Shown here: one piece after another, positions 13,596-31,410 of the stretch
Layout of the letters: every line of letters begins with the position of its first letter
Position numbering within the stretch: position 1 is the stretch's first letter
Notes under the pieces: model-generated
What the model was told of the DNA's origin: nothing
Database searches by the model: none
The model's input: only the letters and a program-made list of their open reading frames with translations
Position numbers and translations under genes: made by a program
DNA from: a virus
Strand: one strand, 5' to 3'
Length of the DNA stretch: 31,567 bases
IMG/VR virus record: IMGVR_UViG_3300042887_003996
Location: 1 to 31,567 of that record

Positions 13596-14884
13596 TGGGA
13601 GGCGGTTCAGCACAAAAACCCAAGGAGCAAGCCGCGCCTCCTCAAGCGCAGCCTATCGACTATGGGGCGCTCATGGCCCAATCAAGCAAAGTTGCCAAAG
13701 AGCAATACCGCGACCAGCTCGCCGCCCAGATCGAAGCCTACCCAAAATATGAGCGGCTTCAGCTCGGCACGGTCTCCAACTTCGCTTCCAACCTTTCCGG
13801 CGAAGGCGGCACTCTCTACGAAAACAAGTGGATTCCCGGAGAAACCACCGGCAAAGGCAAGAATAAGCAAACCACCGATGGCCGCTGGGAAAAAGTCGCC
13901 ATCGGAGAATCCGCGCCGAACCTCTACACCAAACGCGCCACCGACCAGCTCATCGCCGCCGAAGGCCAGGTCGCCGCGCTCGGAACTATCGGCGACTACA
14001 CCGAGCAGCTCGGCTACCAAGCTGCCCGCGACCTCGAAGGCACCGACATCGAGCGCGAGCTACAACGCCAAGCCACCAGCGAACTCGCTCTAGGCCGCGC
14101 CCTCAGCCCCGAGCAGGAGCGCCAAGCCACCCAGCAAGCCCGCGCCGGAATGGCCGCCCGTGGCCTCGGCGTCGGCAACTCCGCCCTCGCCGCCGAAGTC
14201 CTCAACCGCGACGCCTACGCCTCCGCCCGCGAAGCCGACCGCCGGAACTTTGCAGGTTCCACAAACCAACTCCTCGTCTCCAATCGGCAAAACCGCATCG
14301 GCCAAGTCGGCAACATCCTCGGCCAATCCGCCAACACCCGGATGAACCAAGCCAACCTCCGCAGCAGCCTCGCCGGAGCCAACATCACCATCGACCCCTA
14401 CGCCCGCGCCATGAACCCCGCCCTCGGCATGGGAGCCAGCACCCTCGGCCAATCCGGCCAAATGATCGGCAACACCTACAACAACGCCACGCAGATGGCC
14501 GGCAATGTCGCCGCCGTCAACGCCTCCATGCTCGATAGCCGCTGGAACACCGTGCAAAACAACAACGCCTCCCTTATGAGCGCCTACATGGGAGCCAAGG
14601 CCAGCGACAATGCCGCTAACATGGGCCTCCAGGGAGCCGCCATGGGAGCCAGCGCCGTCATCGGAGCCGCCGCCTCTGCCTGTTGCTGGATCGCCCGCGC
14701 CGCCTTCGGCACGGCCACCGCCCGCTGGAAGGACTACCGCCGCGCCATGCTCCGCCATGCCAGCGACCGCACGATCCGACTCTACTGCCGCCACGGCCAA
14801 GCCCTCGCCGCCGCAATCACCACCCCCCTCCGCCGTTTCGCCGCCCGCCTCACACTCCGCACGCTCGAATGGTCCTGGAACTAA
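13595..14884 (+). CDS. Internal virion/ejection-type protein with C-terminal CxIAxxxFG domain
   Basis: 429 residues. The N-terminus is MGGGSAQKPKEQAAPPQAQP; the body is Ala/Gln/Asn-rich with helices (RQATQQARAGMAARGLGVGN, then NRDAYASAREADRRNF) typical of phage internal or tail-needle proteins, then a Gly/Ala-rich hydrophobic stretch (GLQGAAMGASAVIGAAASA). At residue 363 a separate basic C-terminal domain begins with CCWIARAAFG and continues through WKDYRRAMLRHASDRTIRLY, RHG and several Arg-rich helices to the end. This fits a C-terminal domain I recall from other phage and bacterial proteins (C-(F/W)-(I/V)-A-x-x-x-(Y/F)-G, sometimes called the CFI box). The last 16 nt overlap ycaO. I propose it as the likely substrate of the YcaO/ThiS/TfuA set; that is inference. 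Confidence 0.65.
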   Translation: MGGGSAQKPKEQAAPPQAQPIDYGALMAQSSKVAKEQYRDQLAAQIEAYPKYERLQLGTVSNFASNLSGEGGTLYENKWIPGETTGKGKNKQTTDGRWEKVAIGESAPNLYTKRATDQLIAAEGQVAALGTIGDYTEQLGYQAARDLEGTDIERELQRQATSELALGRALSPEQERQATQQARAGMAARGLGVGNSALAAEVLNRDAYASAREADRRNFAGSTNQLLVSNRQNRIGQVGNILGQSANTRMNQANLRSSLAGANITIDPYARAMNPALGMGASTLGQSGQMIGNTYNNATQMAGNVAAVNASMLDSRWNTVQNNNASLMSAYMGAKASDNAANMGLQGAAMGASAVIGAAASACCWIARAAFGTATARWKDYRRAMLRHASDRTIRLYCRHGQALAAAITTPLRRFAARLTLRTLEWSWN

Positions 14885-16041
14885 CAGAGAAAATCCGGCT
14901 CGAAGGAGCCCAACGCGCCTGCACGCCAGAAGAAACTCTGGAGCGCATGCGCCCGCATTTCCACACCGCAGGCATTACCCGCCTCGCCGAGATCACCGGG
15001 CTCGACCGCATCGGCATTTGTGTGGCTCAGTGCATGCGGCCCGACGCCATCGTTCTGGCCGTGGATTCCGGTAAAGGAGCCACCATCGAAGCCGCCAAAT
15101 GCTCGGCCATGATGGAGGGCTTCGAGCGCCATGTCGGCGAAACCAGCCACCCGCCCCACACCCTGGCCTCTGCCGCCCAACTCGGCGACCTCGCCGAGAC
15201 CCGCCTGCCCATGATCAAAGGCGCGGTCTTCCACCCCTATGCCGTCATGCCCTGGACCGAGGTTTTGGGTCTGCGCAGCGCAGCGCCCCGCATGGTGCCC
15301 ACCGACGCCGTGCGACTCATCGCCCGCCCCGACCCCGCTCCGCTGACCAGCATGCCCTTTGCCTACACCAGCAACGGCCTTTCCTCTGGCAATACCTACG
15401 CCGAGGCCGTCGCCGGGGGGCTCTACGAGTGCATCGAGCGCGACTGCACCGGCATCGCCCAGCGCCGCTTGCAGGATTTTCCCCGCGTCGATCTTGATAC
15501 CATCACCGACCCCACCGTCTCCCGCCTCGTCCGCACCTTGCGCGAGGCCGATGTCACCCCGGTCCTCATCGATGTCACCAGCGACATCGGCGTGCCCGCC
15601 TACATTTGCTACCTCATCGACTGCGACAAAGGATTTGGCGTCAACAAAGGCTACGCCGCCCACCTTGACCCCGCCATCGCCCAAGCCCGCGCCATCACCG
15701 AGACCATCCAAGCCCGCGCCGTCTGGATCGCCGGGAGCCGTGACGATTTTTTCCATCACCTCCATGAGAAGGTCAAATCCACCGACTCCGCTGCGGTCCT
15801 CGCCCGCCTCTACAAGCACGCCACCATCAGCGCCAACGCCCACCCCGACCGCTCCGGCGAGACCTTTGAGGCCGACATCGACACCCTCCTCTCCATGCTT
15901 GAAGCCGCCGACATCCCCGAGCCGCTGGTTTACGAATTTGACCACCCCTATCCCTGCTCCGTCGTGCGAGTCATCGTGCCGACCCTTGAAGGCTACACCT
16001 TCGACTACGCCCAACCCGGCCCCCGCGCTCTTTCCAAATGA
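14869..16041 (+). CDS. YcaO-domain backbone-modifying enzyme (TfuA-associated type)
   Basis: 390 residues from the ATG at 14869, 16 nt inside the preceding gene; a start further upstream would give an Arg/Pro-rich out-of-frame sequence. YcaO enzymes use ATP to activate a peptide backbone amide; with TfuA they install a thioamide, alone they usually make azolines. The ATP/Mg signature is intact: SGKG at 67-70, S79-x3-E83-x2-E86-R87 (CSAMMEGFER), and the second acidic block SNGLSSGNTYAEAVAGGLYE followed by CIERD, with E179, E187 and E190. The length is that of a stand-alone YcaO without a fused E1-like or recognition domain. Translation is coupled at both ends (16-nt overlap upstream, ATGA downstream). 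The base composition matches the neighbouring structural genes. Confidence 0.93.
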   Translation: MVLELTEKIRLEGAQRACTPEETLERMRPHFHTAGITRLAEITGLDRIGICVAQCMRPDAIVLAVDSGKGATIEAAKCSAMMEGFERHVGETSHPPHTLASAAQLGDLAETRLPMIKGAVFHPYAVMPWTEVLGLRSAAPRMVPTDAVRLIARPDPAPLTSMPFAYTSNGLSSGNTYAEAVAGGLYECIERDCTGIAQRRLQDFPRVDLDTITDPTVSRLVRTLREADVTPVLIDVTSDIGVPAYICYLIDCDKGFGVNKGYAAHLDPAIAQARAITETIQARAVWIAGSRDDFFHHLHEKVKSTDSAAVLARLYKHATISANAHPDRSGETFEADIDTLLSMLEAADIPEPLVYEFDHPYPCSVVRVIVPTLEGYTFDYAQPGPRALSK

Positions 16042-16256
16042 CACCACAGCTCATCGCCTACCCGCCCACCCATGAAACGACTTACCATTACCGCATCGAC
16101 GGCATTGAGCATTTGTCGCCGTGCGATGTGCGAATTTTGTTTCGAGACGGGAAATTTATCCGCACGGCCCTGCCTTTTCCCGAACCCTACGACTTAGAGC
16201 ATTGGAAAGTCCTCGGTCTGGTCGCCCAAGAAATCGAAAAGCTCGCATCCAAATGA
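16038..16256 (+). CDS. Small protein in YcaO cassette, unknown
   Basis: 72 residues, overlapping ycaO (ATGA) and the ThiS-like gene (ATGA), so it is co-translated with the modification enzymes. The sequence is YHYRIDGIEHLSPCDVRILF, then RDGKFIRTALPF, then a C-terminal helix (DLEHWKVLGLVAQEIEKLAS). Predicted topology is about three beta strands plus a helix. One Cys is present. It is not a recognisable RiPP precursor (no leader-core layout) and not clearly a PqqD-like recognition element, although size and place would suit a substrate-recognition or adaptor subunit. Confidence 0.75.
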   Translation: MTPQLIAYPPTHETTYHYRIDGIEHLSPCDVRILFRDGKFIRTALPFPEPYDLEHWKVLGLVAQEIEKLASK

Positions 16257-16519
16257 CACTCAAAGTTGCTGACTTCCACACCCGCTTCACCGACGGCCTG
16301 CGCGAAATCATTTGCCCTGCGAAATCCATGGAAGAGCTCATGGATCACTTGGCAAAAATTTTCCCAGCCTACCACGCCGCCGTTTACTCCGACGGGAAAA
16401 TCCCACGCTTTTACATAGTTTTCCGAAACGACGACGACATCCGCTACCTCGATGGCATGAAGACCTCCCTCTCCGAAAACGATACCGTCACCATTATGAC
16501 CGCATTCGCCGGAGGCTAA
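16253..16519 (+). CDS. ThiS/MoaD-like sulfur-carrier protein
   Basis: 88 residues from the ATG of the ATGA overlap. It has the ubiquitin-like sulfur-carrier layout: an N-terminal strand pair (FTDGLREIICPAKSMEELMD, a helix HLAKIFPAYH), a middle strand IPRFYIVFRN, an acidic loop DDIRYLDGMKTSLSENDTVT, and the terminal IMTAFAGG. The L-x-(D/E)-x-D-x-V-x-I-x-x-x-x-(A/S)-G-G ending is the family hallmark. The terminal Gly is adenylated by an E1-like enzyme and converted to a thiocarboxylate. In methanogen thioamidation, thiocarboxylated ThiS is the sulfur donor that TfuA hydrolyses. No E1 (ThiF/MoeB) is visible in the window, so the host's would be used. Confidence 0.85.
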   Translation: MTLKVADFHTRFTDGLREIICPAKSMEELMDHLAKIFPAYHAAVYSDGKIPRFYIVFRNDDDIRYLDGMKTSLSENDTVTIMTAFAGG

Positions 16520-16522
16520 CCC

Positions 16523-17542
16523 ATGAAAATCTTTTTCGGCCCCACACGCCCCAGCAACATCCCCGCCGATGCCGACCTCCGGCCCCCGGCCCAGCAAGGC
16601 GACATTGCCGCCGCCGCGCTCGAAGGGCCAGACACCCTCATCCTCCTCGACGGATTCTTTCACCAAAGTCTCGCGCCCTGGCACAAAGAAATCCTCTTCG
16701 CCATCGAGCAGGGTTGCCGCGTCATTGGCGCAGGCAGCCTCGGAGCCCTCCGCGCTGTCGAGTGCGCCCGCTACGGAGCCGAGCCCGTCGGCCTCATCGC
16801 CGAATGGTATGCCGACGGCACCTGCACCGACGACGCCGATGTCGCTGTCGCCCACGGCCCAGCCAGCGAGGACTACAAAAGCTACACCATCCCTTTGGTG
16901 AACATCCGCGCCACGCTCGACGCCCTCTCCGCCGATGGGTTCCTCCCCACCGCCGAAGCCCGCAAGCACCTCGCCACCATCTCCCGCATCTACTACCCCG
17001 AGCGCACATGGTCCGCCATCGAGGCCGTGCTACCGGCCTTGGATTTCCAAGCCCTCAAGCACAACCTCATCGACCAAAAAGCCAAAGACGCCGAAGCCGC
17101 CATCCGGCACGCCCAGCAGGCTCCACCCCCCGCCACCCGCGATCTCCCCCGGCACATCCACACCGCCTATTTCACCGCCCTCCTAGCCAACGACCTCCCG
17201 ACCAGCAACGGCCAACGCCAGCACCACCTCGCCAGCGAGGCCGACCGCACCATCGCCACCGACCGACACCTCGTCTCCGAGCTTGCCCAAATGCTCGGCA
17301 TCGTCACTACACCAGACGACATCTTCGCCGCCAGCACCCGCATGTGGCACCGACTCGGAATCACCGACTCGGAAACCGCAAAAGCCTGGCTCACCGCCAA
17401 TTCATGGACCGACCAGCAATGGTTCGCCCACGCCCAACGCGAAGCCCTCCGCCAAGCCGCCCGCGATTGGCACGCCGCCAGCGGAGCCTGCCTAGATACC
17501 GTCCCACTCACCCTCGCCCACAACCTCCTCAACCCCGCCTAA
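16523..17542 (+). CDS. tfuA: TfuA-like thioamidation partner
   Basis: 339 residues. The N-terminal 130 residues are a full TfuA domain: MKIFFGPTRPSNIP, then PPAQQGDI, ILLDGFFHQSLAPWHKEIL, then GAGSLGALRAVECARYGAEP, GLIAEWYADGT, DDADVAVAHGP and NIRATLDAL. TfuA is required with YcaO for backbone thioamidation; work on the methanogen protein showed that it hydrolyses ThiS-COSH and helps YcaO bind substrate, using a Ser-Lys pair. Candidates here are Ser72 and Lys55, an assignment I make from the conserved motifs. The C-terminal 200 residues are helical and more divergent. The gene starts 3 nt after the sulfur-carrier stop and ends 3 nt before the next virion gene. Confidence 0.92.
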   Translation: MKIFFGPTRPSNIPADADLRPPAQQGDIAAAALEGPDTLILLDGFFHQSLAPWHKEILFAIEQGCRVIGAGSLGALRAVECARYGAEPVGLIAEWYADGTCTDDADVAVAHGPASEDYKSYTIPLVNIRATLDALSADGFLPTAEARKHLATISRIYYPERTWSAIEAVLPALDFQALKHNLIDQKAKDAEAAIRHAQQAPPPATRDLPRHIHTAYFTALLANDLPTSNGQRQHHLASEADRTIATDRHLVSELAQMLGIVTTPDDIFAASTRMWHRLGITDSETAKAWLTANSWTDQQWFAHAQREALRQAARDWHAASGACLDTVPLTLAHNLLNPA

Positions 17543-25000: not shown

Positions 25001-25320
25001 TTATCAAGATCAGCGACCGAGGCGTTTATCAAAGCGAAGCCAAAGCCGACGAAGCTGACAAGCGCGACATGGCCAAGGTCCGACTCTCGCTCCCCGACCA
25101 GGTGAACGGCCTCCGCACCGAATACAACTACCTCAAAAACCGAGGCGAGAACCGCAGCGACCGCGAAACTTTGCGCTACTACGAACTCGGCCAATGGTAT
25201 CGCACCTACCGGCAAGCCATGGACGAAGTGGAAACCAACATGGAATTTGGCAACCGCGCCGCCGCGCAATCCGCCGTCCGTGGCCTAGCCCAAGACAGCA
25301 AACTCTACAAAGCCCGCTAA
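19057..25320 (+). CDS. Giant polyvalent/ejection protein with HExxH peptidase motif
   Basis: 2087 residues from the ATG in the ATGA overlap (an in-frame TTG six nt upstream is less likely). N-terminus: three 15-residue acidic repeats FDPSTAVLIEDEP/FDAASAVPVEEES/FDPTTAVLVEDEP, with a fourth FDPTTATLVDDIP at residue 598. Residues about 165-235 include a Gly/Ala-rich hydrophobic segment. Residues about 1040-1060 contain MTFAHEIGHLVSWMDE, a zincin HExxH with His1048; a downstream YRHSAEELYADAISVLF supplies a likely third Glu ligand. The last 700 residues are helical (IRYNPAFQLFMSPARDLQRS, GRHAQAAGALVPFLNIFLRS) and resemble domains of the large polyvalent proteins carried in phage particles. Probably ejected into the host with the DNA; the peptidase could open peptidoglycan or process partners. 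It converges with integrase, overlapping 4 nt. Confidence 0.7.
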   Translation: MSFDPSTAVLIEDEPADFDAASAVPVEEESMGFDPTTAVLVEDEPALPSATPSPVPTPNPELDAARDAGMREDQLIREEGIFPEGSQSWKVLDGRIYIDPARYNSAVENLWSAGVIDSDSYTQLQKGTVDQWDEATRTVIPSVEKATAARRDLERRAGAFPEAKAAASGLLKGAMQTGAAIVGGGAAATATGFTGPGAIAVGIGAGTAAALGTGYAYDKALELSSKESDLLDSFYAANQLKPGYNTGGQLVSILAPTPVSISRLANAANLIQAEKGSAAAAKFVTGAFGAGAGIGVATDATIQVANLGLDKLLHQDISKEVAMEHFRQTGEQLAPRPQYNPASTGISAIFGGLGAGLGVKARNKTYAPEELVTLESQVKTGRATRQEAEDYRVMRQAVDTLRADERLLDAQAIRRATVDAAGFRFLDTTEIINPRFQRELLAYAAENPAAAVPLSGSPAAYTGQAFINRGGAAPAFQGGTNALPGPEGVPALPAPAVNLQVNPPVVSNDTVPGWTGRVDMEPGLSGDMMDDMSGWILESWKDKQGKPRFQSAEEAWNNYTAYDQSRGVLVPGKQYFIQSLYPQLTQTAPAPVVSNDTFDPTTATLVDDIPPNTSTAPAAASGAPEPTGSPELIAGEGATTSPPAKPKRQFPRISYDPGTFPILSALQESPMRPSSSGTAGGENDFWNEIRRTGRHFAETHRSTGQPYDVRAQELFERGLLPDPSPDTLFNAYMSEVNSYRQIKDGDPTEAEQNKIQKQYDTFTKQALDPSKTKKSNLQPVTTSDLKIGDRVKIADEWLNVKAIDPETFTISLEDGAKFGLQKVEDGTQMWVQETEISPSQDDGFSFLTETAAPPAAAQQAEPFSGNLFTPGEMPFSLDRPLDDDSLKLQREADEANRQQAAEEEAQKSQTNMAFADAGPPAKSSRGGKSMADAGPPTPLLSTTATLPKPPLETYNDAQVFADFPDAVGVVRSSKGSGWTMPLILGGTDKVPVMEMPELVEMVRSLTGNDPKLKRMPKALGTFNPGSGIITLRPDLFQNESSAMMTFAHEIGHLVSWMDERNIKLGNLGGHIMNVGNYLKSTFPITPGAGPALTTADRRKLQAQAKAENPSDPDARTTRYRELVQQTMDTRNLGAVSEKQGGYSPNIREELINLSEWWKPFSYDDAKDSYVDYRHSAEELYADAISVLFNSPADLEARAPVFYKAFWNYADARPQVKASIFEIQNRILMGRDAVLDKRLARDLESFKAGAEVFVGKQAAAAERRASLTGWWENLKDQYWNRYQPLIESAAKARAAGTITKAEEDGIRWLTEEHPLADSKLQLKLADIGRLYQSLDAAGVPRDYFGVWLKHHRIANERYEVTEKIKGMDLTVEKGRAVMANPGGETARTSAEMLASLQQRLGPEKTAALESAVAGFRDVVFTIMEDANDAGLFSADLWEIISANRDNYAAFTPLEYVQEYLPSAIRKQVGTFKEIADPLQQTVLKSISIHRAAQNNRFKRAAVEAIRQTAPELVKPAPMKYNGKAMVPQESQETGLTLVQWKEDGQLTGVHLPDRYARMWEDQSPAERDAILKLLSTGFQRLVYGAIIRYNPAFQLFMSPARDLQRSITNMPGGIQGRARFLQRLLDPETWGASVEWARGDIGKTELLREMIENAATGGPHSAFGGRMGSDDDSLDAILRKYHLQDQQSRNGFVRALMAPLKGIEFAGQVLQLLPKAAAYKVLVKDTGIPAPQAANTIRNHIGIPNYYKKGRHAQAAGALVPFLNIFLRSYDSLQRNLRGAERNMGGREWWLAWALTGGGLIAILQTLAKEGLFGKDLEKLYSRVPTWDMTNFAVLPLGEVPTGETGGKTVYARLPQDEGLRVINGVVSKMLTSAIRSAKGDPSAPQLGEVFAGISSQVPGTNTLVELGQNWTTFLAGRNPRDDFRNRYILSDDQWLAGGWEATKPMLGWTLEQTGITNFFTYDPKADTLTETTLSAAPILNRFIKISDRGVYQSEAKADEADKRDMAKVRLSLPDQVNGLRTEYNYLKNRGENRSDRETLRYYELGQWYRTYRQAMDEVETNMEFGNRAAAQSAVRGLAQDSKLYKAR
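20545..20562 (+). repeat. Perfect 7-bp-arm palindrome GTTAACC/GGTTAAC
   Basis: GTTAACC (20545-20551), spacer TACA, GGTTAAC (20556-20562), inside the linker of the giant gene, 8 nt before another long palindrome. Unusual AT-containing palindrome in GC-rich coding DNA. Confidence 0.6.
20566..20847 (+). repeat. Direct repeats with internal palindrome flanking an AT-rich in-frame block
   Basis: A 21-bp sequence is present identically at 20566-20586 and 20827-20847. Its 3' 16 bp, GGTATCAAATGATACC, form a perfect inverted repeat (7-bp arms, AA centre). The copies are 261 bp (87 codons) apart, keep the frame and encode PVVSNDT twice. The DNA between them is AT-richer than the rest of the gene. Confidence 0.75.
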
Positions 25321-26411
25321 AGCGGCTTCGGCCTCTCCAGCAGGGCGTGGTAGTGCTTCTCGACGACATCCATCGAGTCGCGCAGCAGCTTTGCCGCAAC
25401 CTCCAGGCCGTCCCGCTGGGCGATCCGGCTGCCGTATTCCTTTCTCAAATTATAGGCTCCCTTCGCGCCATCGGGGATGAAGCGCCGCACAAAATCATTG
25501 ATGCCGTCGTGGGTCAGGTCGTCGGCCTCGGTCTTGTGAGCGCGGGGAATGACATACTCGCCCTCGCCAAGCGCGGCCTTGATCGCCCGCATCAGGCGGA
25601 GATTCGCAGGCACTCGGCCATATTTTCCATTTTTGCTGTGGAAGTCGGGGCGTTTGATGAGAACCAAATCGACGCCGCGCTTGTTGGGAAGCCAATCCAC
25701 CCAATCCCACCGCAGCTTGGCCACCTCGGAGTTTCGCAACCCCGCCCGCCGCATCAGCCAGTAAATCGCCCACACTCGAGGATTTTCCCGCCGCAGGGGA
25801 ATCCTCGCCGCCGCATCCATCCGCCGCAGGATGTCGCGGGGAATGGGCTCATAGCTTTGATCCTGGGCTTTTCCGCCCGAGACTTTCCAGAACTCGGTCA
25901 AATCCGGCAGCGTCAAATCCGCGAAGAGGTGCATCCGCCGCTGGGCCACCACTTGCTTGACCGTCTGCACACTCGATCTCACGCCCGCCTCGGTGCAGCC
26001 CGCCGCCAGCCGCGCCGTGATCCAATTCCTCAAGACCGGAGCCGTGAGAACCGAATGAGAGGACACGCCGCGCCAATCCGCCTTGCCGCTCGCCTCGGCG
26101 ACATACTTGGCAAAGCCGCTCGCAGCCTTCACCGCCGATCCGCCGGGGCCATGGAGCTTGAACCGGTCCACAATCTCGCCCGCCGTGGCATAGCCTGGAC
26201 GCCGGACGACCTTCGCCAGCTCCTCCTCGTTGCCCGAGCGCAATCCCTCGGCGATCTTTTTCGCCTTCGCCTCCGCTGCCGCCCGACCGGCTTTGTTGTT
26301 GATCGAAACCCCCGTCGCCTTCTCGACCCGCTTGCCGTCAAGCTGCACGCGGTAATACCAGCCATTGCGTGATTCTTTCCAGTAAACCGAAACCTCGTTG
26401 TGTTTTCTCAT
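25317..26411 (-). CDS. int: Tyrosine recombinase (phage integrase)
   Basis: 364 residues from the ATG at 26411; a GTG 36 nt further upstream is possible but would start in the repeat array. The N-terminal AP2-like arm-binding part (VSVYWKESRNGWYYRVQLDG) is followed by a core-binding helical region and the catalytic domain. The first catalytic Arg lies in RRAGLRNSEVAKLRW (Arg226). The usual H-x-x-R box reads AYNLRKEYGS, with Tyr in place of His. The nucleophile is the Tyr of EKHYHAL (Tyr354), close to the C-terminus as expected. It inserts and excises the phage at the attP just upstream. It is on the opposite strand from the structural genes. Confidence 0.92.
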   Translation of the reverse strand: MRKHNEVSVYWKESRNGWYYRVQLDGKRVEKATGVSINNKAGRAAAEAKAKKIAEGLRSGNEEELAKVVRRPGYATAGEIVDRFKLHGPGGSAVKAASGFAKYVAEASGKADWRGVSSHSVLTAPVLRNWITARLAAGCTEAGVRSSVQTVKQVVAQRRMHLFADLTLPDLTEFWKVSGGKAQDQSYEPIPRDILRRMDAAARIPLRRENPRVWAIYWLMRRAGLRNSEVAKLRWDWVDWLPNKRGVDLVLIKRPDFHSKNGKYGRVPANLRLMRAIKAALGEGEYVIPRAHKTEADDLTHDGINDFVRRFIPDGAKGAYNLRKEYGSRIAQRDGLEVAAKLLRDSMDVVEKHYHALLERPKPL

Positions 26412-26414
26412 ACG

Positions 26415-26670
26415 GTCGCCACTTTTGTCCGCCACTTTGTCCACCACTTCAATGTGAAATTCTTTGGATGGGGTAAACGCATTAGACAGTCAAAAGCTGG
26501 AAGTTTCTGACAAGTTACCTAGGGAAACCGGAGATGGTCGCCACTTTGAGGGGGTGAGGGGAATGCAGCCGGAAAGACTCGAACTTTCAACCTTCTGATC
26601 CGTAGTTTCTGAATCTATCATTATGTTGCAATAATTTAAGTTGTGCGTCCGCCACTTTGGTCGCCACTTT
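26415..26670 (+). repeat. Direct repeats GTC(C)GCCACTTT, candidate integrase arm sites/iterons
   Basis: Six copies in the same orientation: 26415-26425, 26427-26438, 26439-26449 (variant GTCCACCACTT), 26537-26547, 26647-26658 and 26660-26670. They flank the tRNA-like core on both sides, as expected of arm-type integrase sites; the outermost left copies abut the integrase start codon. A replication iteron role cannot be excluded. Confidence 0.7.
26564..26605 (-). other. attP: attP core: 3' half of a tRNA-Arg(ACG) gene
   Basis: Read on the minus strand, 26605-26564 gives anticodon loop CTACGGA, 3' anticodon stem TCAGA, variable AGGTT, T-stem GAAAG, T-loop TTCGAGT, T-stem CTTTC, acceptor CGGCTGC and discriminator A. 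The 5' half of a tRNA is absent: the bases before the loop do not pair with TCAGA. This is the normal form of an attP that recreates the 3' end of the host tRNA gene on integration. It lies 150 bp upstream of the integrase start. Confidence 0.8.
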
Positions 26671-28244: not shown

Positions 28245-28283
28245 GGTTGGGTTGTCCTGGGGGGAACGGTGTTTAGTTGGTGA
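28245..28283 (-). repeat. Intergenic 39-bp repeat (copy 2 of 2)
   Basis: Second copy of the boundary repeat described at 27944. It includes the stop codon of ardA. Confidence 0.6.
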
Positions 28284-28791
28284 AGAAATAAATGGTGCCG
28301 TCTGCTGATTCGCTGGTGGTGTAGTCGTAGCGGAGGGAGCGGTTCCAAGCGGCTTCCCAATCAATCGCCCCGGCGATCCAGTCGGGGAGGTCTTTGGGGA
28401 TGTCGCCGCATTCTTGGGCGATGTTCTCGGCGAAGTCTGCGCCGGTGTCGGCAGTGCCTTGGAAGCGGTCGCGGGCTTGCTCAATGGTGGCGTCGGCTTC
28501 TCCGGTGGCGTCGCAATAGCGGGCGAGGAGTTCACGGTCGTCGTCGCTGAGGTCGAGCCATTCCCAAAGCTGGGGCGAAAGGCTGCATTCCCCGTAGAAC
28601 TCGCGGGGGAACCCCTGGAAATCTTGATACATCAGCTCGGGGTCGGCTTCGTCGGCGTGGAGCTGGGCGCAGGCGGCGCGGAAGGTTTCTTGGTCGTGAC
28701 CGTCAAGGACTAGCCAAGCGCCCTTTAGGTTGCCGTCATTATATTTTGCGTAGGTGCCCACATAAACGCGGGCCTCGGTTGTTGTTGTCAT
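28273..28791 (-). CDS. ardA: Antirestriction protein ArdA
   Basis: 172 residues, the usual length of single ArdA proteins. The N-terminus RVYVGTYAKYNDGNLKGAWL is diagnostic, followed by ADPELMYQDFQGFPREFYGE, DDDRELLARYCDATGE, ARDRFQGT, NIAQECGDIP and a terminal W ... YDYTTSESADGTIYFF. The protein is strongly acidic. ArdA dimers mimic bent B-form DNA and block type I restriction-modification enzymes, protecting incoming phage DNA. Two hairpins precede its start codon. Confidence 0.93.
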   Translation of the reverse strand: MTTTTEARVYVGTYAKYNDGNLKGAWLVLDGHDQETFRAACAQLHADEADPELMYQDFQGFPREFYGECSLSPQLWEWLDLSDDDRELLARYCDATGEADATIEQARDRFQGTADTGADFAENIAQECGDIPKDLPDWIAGAIDWEAAWNRSLRYDYTTSESADGTIYFFTN

Positions 28792-28990: not shown

Positions 28991-29419
28991 TCAGCGGGTT
29001 TTTTTCTGCGTGAGAGTTTTTGCGTCGGCTCGGAGGGAATCGAGGAGGGGATTGGCTGCGCCAGGGCAAACGATGGCGATGTGCTGCGGGGGCATTTCGG
29101 CGGGCTGGAAAAGCTCGAATGCACGGGCTCCGTTGGGCCAGCGGGCGCGGAAATAGTGAGTTAAAGCTCCGGTCTCGGGCCAGCGTGGGCGGCCTGCGAA
29201 AGTGGTGTCGGGGCGGATTTTTAAAGTGACGGGGGCAGCGCCAAGAACATTCCCGTTCCAATCGACAATTCCGCCGGGTGGGCTGGTGTGGATGGTGATT
29301 TCGATGGGGGGCTGGGCGGCGATGGCGCGGGGTGCGTAGGTCTCGCGGGGGTCGGGCTGGGTGGCGCAGCCGGTGAGGAAAGCGGCGAGCAGGGCGAGAA
29401 ATGTGTTCTTTGCTTTCAT
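28991..29419 (-). CDS. Phage-encoded lipoprotein with PEGA-like segment
   Basis: 142 residues. A signal peptide (MKAKNTFLALLAAFLTGC) with a clear lipobox LTGC places Cys18 as the lipidated residue. The mature protein contains PPIEITIHTSPPGGIVDWNG, resembling the start of a PEGA-type surface domain, then RWPNGARAFELFQ. It is the first minus-strand gene left of the regulators, so it is plausibly expressed in the lysogen. A surface-exposed lipoprotein in that position suggests superinfection exclusion or lysogenic conversion (inference). The downstream gap 28792-28990 holds the ardA leader and an A/T-rich stretch but no gene that I can support. Confidence 0.65.
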   Translation of the reverse strand: MKAKNTFLALLAAFLTGCATQPDPRETYAPRAIAAQPPIEITIHTSPPGGIVDWNGNVLGAAPVTLKIRPDTTFAGRPRWPETGALTHYFRARWPNGARAFELFQPAEMPPQHIAIVCPGAANPLLDSLRADAKTLTQKKTR

Positions 29420-29429
29420 AAATAGCTTA

Positions 29430-29455
29430 ATGATAGCAATCTAACCCCCCCCCCC
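29430..29455 (-). promoter_or_regulatory. Poly-C/G tract next to a -10-like box upstream of the lipoprotein gene
   Basis: The + strand has eleven consecutive C (29445-29455). On the minus strand this is an 11-G run followed 9 nt later by TATCAT (29435-29430), a good -10 box, 10 nt before the lipoprotein ATG. The G run falls inside the spacer where a -35/-10 distance would be set. No clear -35 hexamer is visible. Confidence 0.35.
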
Positions 29456-29493
29456 GCCTAGCGGTAGGGGCATTTGAATGATTTTGCATTGAT

Positions 29494-29727
29494 CTACCCG
29501 GCGGCGTGCTTTTTCTTTCGCGGAATATGCCCAACCTGTTGAGATTGGGCTGGGTCTTTTCCCTGGTGAATAGGAGTGTCCGTCACGGTTTGGCCGAATA
29601 GATGGAGTAAAGCCCGCTCGACAACCTGGCCGCGACTCAGGCGCGAGGCTTGCGCGTGGGCATCGACTAAATCGAAGAGCACTTGATCTAAGCGCACATC
29701 GATCTTTTTTGTCTTTTTTAATTTCAC
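29494..29727 (-). CDS. Ribbon-helix-helix regulator (repressor candidate)
   Basis: 77 residues if started at the GTG at 29727; a TTG at 29796 would give 100 residues. The GTG start is preferred because the operator-like palindrome then lies upstream. The core TKKIDVRLDQVLFDLVDAHA followed by SRLSRGQVVERALLHLF is a typical MetJ/Arc fold: beta strand, helix, S-R-(G/S)-x-x-V-x-x-A-L helix. The C-terminus is basic (IPRKKKHAAG). It diverges from another RHH gene at 29818, the position where classical phages keep cI/cro, so this pair may form the lysis-lysogeny switch. Confidence 0.7.
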   Translation of the reverse strand: MKLKKTKKIDVRLDQVLFDLVDAHAQASRLSRGQVVERALLHLFGQTVTDTPIHQGKDPAQSQQVGHIPRKKKHAAG

Positions 29728-29735
29728 ACGGGCAA

Positions 29736-29805
29736 TGTCGGACAATCTCCGGCGGTTTGCAAATAAGTATTTTTCCCCACTTGACACCAACGACAATGTC
29801 AGACA
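29736..29805 (+). promoter_or_regulatory. Paired palindromic operators TGTCNGACA in the divergent promoter region
   Basis: TGTCGGACA (29736-29744) and TGTCAGACA (29797-29805), both perfect 4-bp-arm palindromes with one central base, both preceded by CAA. They flank the 90-nt region between two divergent RHH genes, 8 nt before the GTG at 29727 and 12 nt before the ATG at 29818. TTGACA at 29781-29786 is a possible -35 box for the rightward gene. Confidence 0.55.
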
Positions 29806-29817
29806 AGGTCGGCGCTC

Positions 29818-30009
29818 ATGAAGATACCACCCAAAGAAATCAAACTCTCTGCGCGGCTTCCAGAGCCGCTCGGCGGGCTACTAGCTGATGAGGCGAGGCG
29901 GCGGTTGTGCAGCCATTCGGATGTCGTTCGGGAAGCGTTGTTGCTTTTTTTGCGCCCCGAAAGTCAGACAAAGTCAGATGATGTCAGAAATCAGGAGGCG
30001 GCACTATGA
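29818..30009 (+). CDS. Ribbon-helix-helix protein (Arc/CopG-like)
   Basis: 63 residues. EIKLSARLPEPLGGLLADEA, then RRRLCSHSDVVREALLLFL, shows the short strand (L-S-A-R-L), first helix, S-x-S-D-V-V-R-E-A-L second helix of Arc-like repressors. The 3' end of the gene carries three 10-bp units with GTCAGA. It overlaps the next small gene by ATGA. Probably a Cro-like or activator partner of the divergent RHH gene. Confidence 0.75.
   Translation: MKIPPKEIKLSARLPEPLGGLLADEARRRLCSHSDVVREALLLFLRPESQTKSDDVRNQEAAL
29961..29990 (+). repeat. Three helically phased GTCAGA repeats
   Basis: AAGTCAGACA, AAGTCAGATG and ATGTCAGAAA are consecutive 10-bp units (GTCAGA at 29963, 29973 and 29983), one DNA turn apart, within the last codons of the RHH gene. 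GTCAGA is the half-site of the upstream operator candidates. Confidence 0.6.
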
Positions 30010-30158
30010 AACGGCGTCGCCTTTTTTTTGTTGAGGGTTTAAATGCCTTTCGGCATCGGGTCGGGGAATATTTCTGGGCTTTCACCTCGGGCGAGGCTCG
30101 GGCGCTCTTTTTTGCTCAATTCGGCAGCTACCCGAACAAGGTGGAGGTGGAGAAATGA
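30006..30158 (+). CDS. Tiny basic/aromatic protein
   Basis: 50 residues (MKRRRLFFVEGLNAFRHRVG, EYFWAFTSGEARALFFAQFG, SYPNKVEVEK). Joined by ATGA overlaps to the RHH gene before it and the next gene after it, which is the main evidence that it is real. Rich in Arg and Phe; function unknown. Confidence 0.5.
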   Translation: MKRRRLFFVEGLNAFRHRVGEYFWAFTSGEARALFFAQFGSYPNKVEVEK

Positions 30159-30262
30159 GCGGGGCGGATTTTTTACGCTTGGCCGGGTATGCCTGGGAAT
30201 TTGCCTGGGCAATCAGTCCGGCGCTTTTTTTGGCGGGGTTGACCTGGAGGGTGTCGAGATGA
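30155..30262 (+). CDS. Tiny membrane protein
   Basis: 35 residues (MSGADFLRLAGYAWEFAWAI, SPALFLAGLTWRVSR), with one hydrophobic segment of about 20 residues and a terminal Arg. Chained by ATGA overlaps at both ends. Too short for family assignment; a single-span membrane peptide is likely if expressed. Confidence 0.4.
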   Translation: MSGADFLRLAGYAWEFAWAISPALFLAGLTWRVSR

Positions 30263-30489
30263 TCGAGAAACATTATTCGCCGACTGAGCTGGCGAAGATC
30301 TTGGGCATTTCGCGGGCCGGGATGCATCTCCGGCTGCACGATGGCACATTCGGCCATGTCCGCCTCGGGGATCGGGTCTTGATTCCTGAGAGTGAGGTCC
30401 AAAGGGTGCTGGATCAGTGCCGGGTCGAGGGTGCTGATGCCCGGCCGGCGCGGCCTGCCCACCGGCGCAATCTTTTTGCCCACGCCTAA
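30259..30489 (+). CDS. Excisionase-like winged-helix DNA-binding protein
   Basis: 76 residues. HYSPTELAKILGISRAGMHL, then GHVRLGDRVLIPESEVQRVL, is the standard excisionase/MerR-like pattern: helix-turn-helix start (x-x-P-x-E-x-A-x-x-L-G-I-S), beta wing (x-R-x-G-x-R-x-x-I-P) and a final helix. The Arg/Pro-rich tail is probably disordered. A role in excision with the integrase is likely; a transcriptional role is possible. The ATG overlaps the preceding stop (ATGA). Confidence 0.75.
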   Translation: MIEKHYSPTELAKILGISRAGMHLRLHDGTFGHVRLGDRVLIPESEVQRVLDQCRVEGADARPARPAHRRNLFAHA

Positions 30490-30492
30490 TCC

Positions 30493-31410
30493 ATGCCGGA
30501 CCTTGCCGCCGATCCGGCTTTTTTTTGCGCCAAAAATTCTGACGGGGTGAATACCCCAGAGGGAAACACCCCATTGCAGGCCGTGGAAGCTGCCGCCCTC
30601 GCCGCGCCTTTTCTTTTTTCTGAGGAGGAAATCGGGGCGGAGAGATTGGAAGCCACGGGAGAGTTTAGCGGGGAAAGGCTACTGGCGCGGAGGCCGGAGG
30701 TTTATCGGGCAATCTGCCGGATGAGCGCCGAGGGATTGAGCATGTCGGCCATGGCTCGGGCTCTCGGGGTGAGCCGGAACACGGTGGCGGCTGTCCAGGA
30801 GCGTGAGGGAATTTCTATAGAGCAGCACAAAAAGGAGTTGTTGCGGAATGTCCGCACGGCTGCCCGGCTGTCTGTCGAGCGGGTCGTTGAGTTGGTGCCT
30901 ACGATTAACAACGCCAAAGATGCCGCCATCGTGGCGGCTGTCATGGTGGACAAACTCCAGCTCCTCAGCGGTGAGGCTACCGCCCGCGTCGAGCGGGTCG
31001 AGGTCAACCAGGACAAGCTGGCCGAAATGCTGGCCAGCCTGCCGATCCTAGAGGCCGAGGTCGTCGCGCTAACCGGTCCAAGCGACGCCGCGCCGGAACA
31101 AAAGGGGACCGCTGCCCTGCCTGGCGTGATGCCTGCCGGGCTTGGCTCTGATTCGTTATCAGAAGGTCTAGCCTCGTTTACAGATAGAGGCTCGGCGATG
31201 TCCGCCACTTTGTCAGCCACTTCGCCCGACGCCGCCGGTGCCGAGCCGGTCGAGGCCGTGGCCGGGCTGGTCGATCAGGAGGGGGGGGAGGGGGTCGAGA
31301 ATTTCGAGGCCCCCCCATCACAACCCACTGGTTTGGGTGCACAGAAAATTTTTGACAAAGGGGTCTCGTCTGCCCCGCAGGACGCTTCGGATTCATCAAC
31401 CCTACCATGA
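30493..31410 (+). CDS. Terminase small subunit-like protein
   Basis: 305 residues. Residues about 70-115 (RPEVYRAICRMSAEGLSMSA, then MARALGVSRNTVAAVQERE) form a helix-turn-helix. They are followed by helices ending in NAKDAAIVAAVMVDKLQLLS-GEAT, a layout I associate with terminase small subunits, which bind the packaging site. The last 120 residues are Pro/Gly/Ser-rich and of low complexity, with homopolymeric G and C tracts near 31280-31315. It overlaps the next gene by ATGA. An alternative is a generic HTH regulator. Confidence 0.6.
   Translation: MPDLAADPAFFCAKNSDGVNTPEGNTPLQAVEAAALAAPFLFSEEEIGAERLEATGEFSGERLLARRPEVYRAICRMSAEGLSMSAMARALGVSRNTVAAVQEREGISIEQHKKELLRNVRTAARLSVERVVELVPTINNAKDAAIVAAVMVDKLQLLSGEATARVERVEVNQDKLAEMLASLPILEAEVVALTGPSDAAPEQKGTAALPGVMPAGLGSDSLSEGLASFTDRGSAMSATLSATSPDAAGAEPVEAVAGLVDQEGGEGVENFEAPPSQPTGLGAQKIFDKGVSSAPQDASDSSTLP
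31200..31222 (+). repeat. Two further GTCCGCCACTTT-type repeats inside the terminase-like gene
   Basis: GTCCGCCACTTT (31200-31211) followed directly by GTCAGCCACTT (31212-31222). The first is identical to arm-type repeats near attP 4.5 kb away. It encodes S-A-T-L-S-A-T. Confidence 0.6.

Follow-up and report, generated by a model that had tools for sequence, protein, structure and literature searches.

In phage lambda, the immunity region places divergent regulators with the operon bearing the integrase on one side and a replication operon on the other, and supplies them with a related operator set. In phage P22, mnt and arc-ant are transcribed divergently. In the immI region of P22, Mnt represses arc and ant, and Arc represses mnt and moderates ant (PMC11016777, PMC7549136). 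In SSV1, the small ribbon-helix-helix (RHH) protein F55 is described as keeping the carrier state and binding short repeats at early promoters and at its own (PMC9608457). The RHH protein YosL of SP-beta is tied to lytic/lysogenic control beside the master repressor MrpR (PMC10516654), and an Arc-like gene of Pf phages stands in the place of the repressor gene, its role being offered as a possibility (PMC7549136). The literature seen in searches on RHH control of phage lysogeny describes no RHH pair acting as a main switch, a statement that we confine to that literature.

Here we analyzed a virus record of 31,567 bases from IMG/VR (IMGVR_UViG_3300042887_003996), the whole of which we refer to as the window. 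It lacks an exact terminal repeat of 10-399 bases. Its first bases fall within a portal-like gene and its last bases within an early operon. The portal-like gene matched no Pfam or PHROG family; a search against phage records gave four distant matches, in which it shares 28% identity with a gene of phage C75C1 that lacks annotation and 21% with proteins annotated as portals. A preliminary description of this DNA had proposed a lysogeny switch made of two divergent RHH proteins, with two palindromes in the gap between their genes. The open reading frames confirm the divergent genes, termed A and B below, on either side of a 90-nt gap when A is taken from its GTG at 29727. The two palindromes are likewise confirmed, TGTCGGACA at 29736-29744 and TGTCAGACA at 29797-29805, and these are the only exact occurrences of TGTCNGACA in the window. 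Two elements had been overlooked: the candidate operators number three rather than two, and the gap has a conserved core of 30 nt. The features of the locus are listed here.

29494-29727, minus strand: gene A, RHH protein of 77 aa from GTG; first gene of the leftward operon; proposed CI-like lysogeny repressor.
29729-29751, no strand assigned: O1, which contains TGTCGGACA; adjoins the GTG of A, or lies over the first codons of A if the start is at 29745.
29757-29786, no strand assigned: conserved core TTGCAAATAAGTATTTTTCCCCACTTGACA, nearly identical in the alignment of close contigs.
29797-29812, no strand assigned: O2, which begins with TGTCAGACA; directly before the ATG of B.
29818-30009, plus strand: gene B, RHH protein of 63 aa; first gene of the rightward operon; proposed Cro-like early regulator.
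29963-29987, no strand assigned: O3, with GTCAG boxes at three positions (29963, 29973 and 29983).

When A, B and the alignments of each were used to search IMG/VR, 14 other contigs were returned, all with the divergent pair. A search with the gap core returned seven contigs, all already among the 14. Across these and the window (15 contigs), the distance from the GTG of A to the ATG of B is 86-91 nt. Twelve contigs, the window included, are close to one another and amount to nine distinct sequences; in the three distant contigs, A is 41-42% identical. Alignments A1 and A2 comprise seven sequences out of a working set of nine. Where we refer below to 13 records, these represent 13 of the 15 contigs, the short contigs of L007 and L025 being left out. 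A scan of bacterial genome contigs gave a single weak match, 29 residues long and from a Burkholderiales MAG, which we did not count as evidence, and a search of phage records with A gave no match. Two of the records, G003 and G004, look like circularly permuted, near-complete genomes of ~41 kb, because both ends of each break within the same element. In G004, this element is a GCCACCA tandem repeat beside A; in G003, it is the gene for a 305-aa protein, with diverged copies. The heptanucleotide repeat lies between A and the adjacent lipoprotein gene, and its copy number varies among contigs. It was seen at L038:1-80 and at the far end of L028 (both of which are G004 contig ends), at ~1870-1942 in L003 and at ~6368-6400 in L004. 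Immediately downstream of A in the window is a run of 11 C residues (29445-29455), which is 14 long in the nearest relative.

Assignment of A to the RHH fold is firm. The ORF matches Pfam PF01402 (RHH_1) with E 4.7e-4 and 20.4 bits, against a cut-off of 20.5, and the open frame in which it lies scores 21.7 bits, over the cut-off. A also matches PHROG_876, 'transcriptional repressor' (E 1.9e-4), and the sole match of its profile among solved structures is the antitoxin Rv0298 (8u12, E 0.0082). For B, which is 63 aa long in all 15 contigs, the evidence for an RHH protein is indirect. The B sequence of the window alone matches no Pfam or PHROG family. A distant homologue (G003:1282-1389) scores 23.3 bits for RHH_1, over the cut-off, and other B homologues match below it. 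When the profile of B was compared to that of A with hhalign, the RHH cores aligned over 42 columns (E 1.6e-4, probability 50.7); compared to solved structures, it matched a designed helical protein alone (E 1.2).

AlphaFold monomer models of both proteins, of low confidence (pLDDT 65.4 for A and 65.5 for B), show an extended N-terminus followed by two helices, with a third, C-terminal helix in B and no strand assigned in either. RHH proteins (CopG, Arc, AmrZ, antitoxins) were frequent among the Foldseek matches listed for A and B, all of them weak (E >0.8). The top-ranked match for A was an Arc mutant, at the lowest E-value for this protein (0.88), while E-values begin at 1.5 for B. At the presumed DNA-reading strand, A keeps K-I-D-V-R-L in the alignments (the distant group has K-I-D-T-R-L), and in B the conserved residues are S/T-A-R-L. 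In RHH structures, residues of this kind at the strand read DNA. Neither protein has an obvious damage-sensing domain. The tail of A is variable and probably disordered. It ends in -AG or -TG in seven aligned sequences and not in the three distant ones; that this end matters for turnover we offer as a lead only.

Two start codons are candidates for A, GTG 29727 and TTG 29745. An in-frame GTG at the position of 29727 is common to all 15 contigs. Six codons upstream, a second start codon is present in 12 of the 15 (ATG in six, TTG in three including the window, GTG in three), and the remaining three have AAA there. In the window, a start at TTG 29745 would reduce the gap to 72 nt, and the first palindrome would then overlie the first codons of A. 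Hence, the palindromes lie symmetrically before the two starts, as had been claimed, for the GTG start only. A still longer version of A, from TTG 29796, is not favored, as no start codon at that position is common to the set and only GTG 29727 is found throughout.

Alignment of the operators shows that each consists of tandem GTCNG boxes, one DNA turn apart. O2, when extended, reads GTCAGACAAGGTCGG (29798-29812), an exact consensus with two GTCNG boxes 10 bp apart, and it takes the form GTCNGACANNGTCNG, directed towards B, in 12/12 close contigs. O1 is the mirror image of O2, directed towards A. In the window it reads GTCCGACATTGCCCG (29743-29729), one mismatch from the consensus. Both boxes of O1 are present in six of the 12 close contigs and one box in the other six, among them the window, which has one good half-site of two. 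The conservation of O1 could come in part from coding, since the upstream start of A overlaps it in 12 of the 15 contigs. O3 is situated within gene B at its 3' end, shortly ahead of the GGAGG that precedes gene C, and its three boxes are found at +145, +155 and +165 of B in all 12 close contigs, including the window. The three distant contigs all retain TGTCNGACA ahead of B and at position +144 of B, and two have it at A; the third has GTCNGAC at A, without the last A. These distant members (L023-L025) have an additional GTCNGAC at +98 in gene B, where it overlaps conserved coding sequence.

To what extent are these sites specific to the locus? Under a first-order Markov model, TGTCNGACA is expected 0.22 times in the whole window, and finding two in the gap corresponds to a Poisson P of ~1.6e-7. 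In the 13 records (347,678 bases), the exact motif occurs at 26 places, 25 of which are at this locus (the exception is G002:41370), and its reversed control occurs at none. The extended operator GTCNGACANNGTCNG gave 32 exact matches, in 11 of the 13 records, every one at this locus. With one mismatch allowed, the number rose to 56; of the 24 added, six are elsewhere (G000:6115, G002:7369, G002:24859, G007:22872, G009:15579 and G012:3036), and the reversed control gave one match in all 13 records. The Poisson P value and the confinement of the motif to the locus in the 13 records together rule out a chance origin of the palindromes.

The position of O3 inside a gene raises the question of whether its conservation is that of coding sequence. 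Its letters are invariant at 15/15 positions, compared to 7/36 neighboring letters of the same tail (P 5e-8), and at its third codon positions 5/5 are invariant, compared to 15/58 elsewhere (P 0.002); because the sequences are related by descent, these P values are guides rather than strict tests. The counts come from the nine distinct sequences of the 12 close contigs, with the three distant contigs left out. Within the fixed GTCNG boxes, the encoded residues vary, being S, C or G at codon 49 and Q or P at codon 50 (for example, S-Q to C-P). Coding conservation as the mere cause of O3 is disfavored, because the letters stay the same while the codons change meaning.

The core of the gap contains a –35-like hexamer for each gene, TTGACA (29781-29786) for B and TTGCAA (29762-29757) for A. 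In the window, each of these lies 17 nt away from a weak –10-like hexamer overlapping or adjacent to O2 or O1. TTGAC is found 37-38 nt ahead of the ATG of B in 15/15 contigs, and TTGC is found 34-35 nt ahead of the GTG of A in 14/15. A consensus scanner called no sigma-70 promoter at 29300-30300. From their sequence and placement, these hexamers may represent the divergent promoters of A and B. If so, the message of B, and also that of A when started at the GTG, would have almost no leader.

The genes flanking the pair are as follows.

25317-26447, minus strand: tyrosine integrase, with which the leftward operon ends (PHROG_1, E 4.1e-16; PF00589 below cut-off in the window).
28273-28791, minus strand: ArdA antirestriction protein, leftward operon (PF07275, E 1.8e-20).
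28991-29419, minus strand: PEGA-domain-like lipoprotein, next after A in the leftward operon (PF08308, E 0.0031, below cut-off).
30006-30158, plus strand: gene C, 50-aa protein with no Pfam family; in L003 and L004, B is followed by a counterpart of 48 aa.
30259-30489, plus strand: HTH_17 excisionase-like protein, rightward operon (PF12728, E 4.1e-8; PHROG_66 'excisionase and transcriptional regulator', E 5.9e-6).
30493-31410, plus strand: 305-aa protein with weak HTH, rightward operon (GcrA, small-terminase and invertase-like matches).

Leftward from A, all on a single strand, come the lipoprotein gene, ardA, small ORFs and the integrase gene. Rightward from B come gene C and the genes for the HTH_17 protein and the 305-aa HTH protein, and the window then soon ends. 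The window itself covers the integrase side only, its contig ending before the replication genes. In relatives, the integrase lies on one side of the A/B pair and replication genes lie on the other. Integrase was found in nine of the 13 records (in two of them over the Pfam cut-off), always on the strand of A and past A, at a distance of ~3.8-4.9 kb in eight records and across the contig ends in G004. DnaB was also found in nine of the 13, always on the strand of B and past B, ~4.4-4.9 kb away in eight records and across the contig ends in G003. In the relative G002 (locus L012), the B side encodes an RNase_T exonuclease, a replication initiator (PHROG_2509, E 2.3e-32) and DnaB. In the related contig L004, the integrase-side operon includes a gene for a RadC-like JAB protein. 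Elsewhere in the window, downstream of the virion-gene region, a stretch at 14683-17542 encodes a YcaO cyclodehydratase (PF02624, E 7e-62), a ThiS-like protein (E 8.6e-8) and TfuA (PF07812, E 2.9e-36), resembling a cassette for thioamide or peptide modification carried on a phage. YcaO is present in four of the 13 records of the lineage and was not found in the other nine, some of which are fragments. A literature search on YcaO, TfuA and phage returned no title on such a phage cassette.

The locus is real and conserved; it is very likely a regulatory switch, and probably the lysis-lysogeny switch. With respect to the switch put forward in the preliminary description, the layout and its conservation lend support, and DNA binding and control of lysogeny are what we would predict from them. 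We consider it reasonably probable that a temperate tailed phage has its early control region at this locus, where A is a CI-like repressor and B is a Cro-like early regulator, both built from RHH parts. From sequence features we infer which protein binds which site, where the promoters lie, in which direction regulation runs and what part the locus plays in lysogeny. Two divergent promoters would be covered by matching GTCNG operators, O1 at the start of A and O2 before B. Both RHH proteins would bind O1-O3, presumably as dimers that line up along the sites. In the prophage, A, which heads the integrase operon, would keep the lytic promoter off and tune its own expression. B heads the operon that encodes the excisionase-like protein and that, in relatives, also includes the genes for the replication initiator and DnaB helicase; B would shut off A and then, in the fashion of Cro, its own early promoter. 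O3 may modulate, or block, the transcription that enters gene C and the genes after it.

A more ambitious version of this reading is possible, though we hold it tentatively. The entire lysis-lysogeny decision might be made by two RHH proteins competing for a three-part operator set, without an HTH repressor or an autoprotease. The locus might then represent a CI/Cro circuit re-invented in another fold, with a third operator inside the coding sequence of the Cro equivalent and the first operator perhaps inside the first codons of the CI equivalent.

Such a version presupposes that the phage has no conventional repressor, and the preliminary description had indeed seen no cI/cro-type pair. Our searches of the 13 records, two of which are apparently near complete, are consistent with this. 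HTH_3 gave no match over the cut-off in any of them. Sub-threshold HTH_3 matches were seen in 8/13 records, where they scored 15.4-16.3 bits (cut-off 23) and lay in frames of 249-317 aa; the one in the window is in the early-operon HTH protein of 305 aa. No match to HTH_19 or Peptidase S24 was obtained in the 13 records. These data argue against a conventional repressor elsewhere in the phage, although one of an unrecognized family could have escaped the searches. Were there such a protein, it might be the main lysogeny repressor, and A and B might form a secondary immunity module like immI of P22, controlling an accessory early gene and each other. Several small genes of these phages are without family, the HTH_17 and 305-aa HTH proteins are possible regulators, and the Mnt/Arc RHH pair of P22 has such a secondary role (PMC11016777, PMC7549136). 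We nonetheless find this arrangement unlikely. The A/B pair lies between the integrase and replication operons and heads both, the exact operators occur at no other place in the 13 records save one palindrome, the searches for HTH_3, HTH_19 and S24 came out as described, and no antirepressor gene was recognized with Pfam or PHROGs among the scanned proteins after B.

Other roles for a pair of RHH proteins fit the locus less well. The frequency of antitoxins among the listed fold matches, together with Rv0298 as the only solved-structure match to the profile of A, might indicate two antitoxin-like autorepressors, relics of toxin-antitoxin systems that control themselves alone. The genes adjoining A and B encode the lipoprotein, the 50-aa protein and the excisionase-like protein, with no match to a toxin family in Pfam or PHROGs, and it would be unusual for antitoxin genes to stand back to back, share operators and head integrase and replication operons; we therefore regard this as very unlikely. 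Equally, A and B could serve as an early/late timing switch that orders early expression, with lysogeny depending on integration and host control. The lack of a sensor domain in A or B, the location of O3 between B and later genes, and the replication operon headed by B in relatives would all suit such a timer. It is nevertheless very improbable, given that A heads an integrase-bearing operon rather than late genes and that the exact operator set is confined to a single locus. Finally, RHH centromere-binding proteins of the ParG or omega type act on iteron-like repeats in partition or plasmid-maintenance loci. A phage that has iterons together with an RHH protein resembling ParG has been reported (PMC6669507). 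In favor of such a locus, three of the half-sites here lie 10 bp apart. However, a match to the ParA-type ATPase family AAA_31 is absent from 13/13 records at E <= 1, which rules against a partition locus; moreover, integrase is present in 9/13 records and the sites are located at two divergent gene starts. We give this explanation almost no weight.

If the favored reading, with A as a CI-like repressor and B as a Cro-like regulator, is true, then phages have come to the same bistable design by way of another DNA-binding fold, the design being one of divergent repressors that share operators and are flanked by integrase on one side and by replication on the other. Annotation that seeks CI-like proteins could call such temperate phages repressor-less, because B matches no curated family and A does so only at the borderline. 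The lineage could be recognized by its conserved operator, which is sufficiently specific for use as a marker, and the small parts of the system would be suited to testing why CI/Cro-like circuits recur.

How, then, does the locus compare to described systems? F55 of SSV1 is a single RHH protein with sites at several promoters, and it belongs to an archaeal spindle virus (a fusellovirus) rather than to a tailed phage. The Pf phages are filamentous. The closest parallel is immI of P22, which similarly has two RHH proteins in opposed roles at one phage locus, but is a secondary region that controls the antirepressor Ant, with C2/Cro as the main switch of P22. Here, in contrast, no Ant or C2-like gene was recognized, and the B side leads to replication genes. 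The GTCNG sites differ from the operators of Arc and Mnt both in their sequence and in their tandem 10-bp half-sites. Between Arc/Mnt and A/B, the RHH fold is the only relationship that we found. In terms of sequence features, the likeness to CI/Cro of lambda lies in the divergent regulators with shared putative operators at both gene starts, and in the integrase operon on one side and the replication operon on the other. Unlike lambda, the third operator here is inside the gene of the Cro equivalent. The regulators of lambda are HTH proteins and those here are RHH proteins, with no match to the S24 autoprotease (0/13 records). The preliminary description had held that a switch of two RHH proteins would differ from classic phage logic; our comparison suggests instead that the logic is classic, as in lambda and P22, and that the unusual part is the fold of the proteins.
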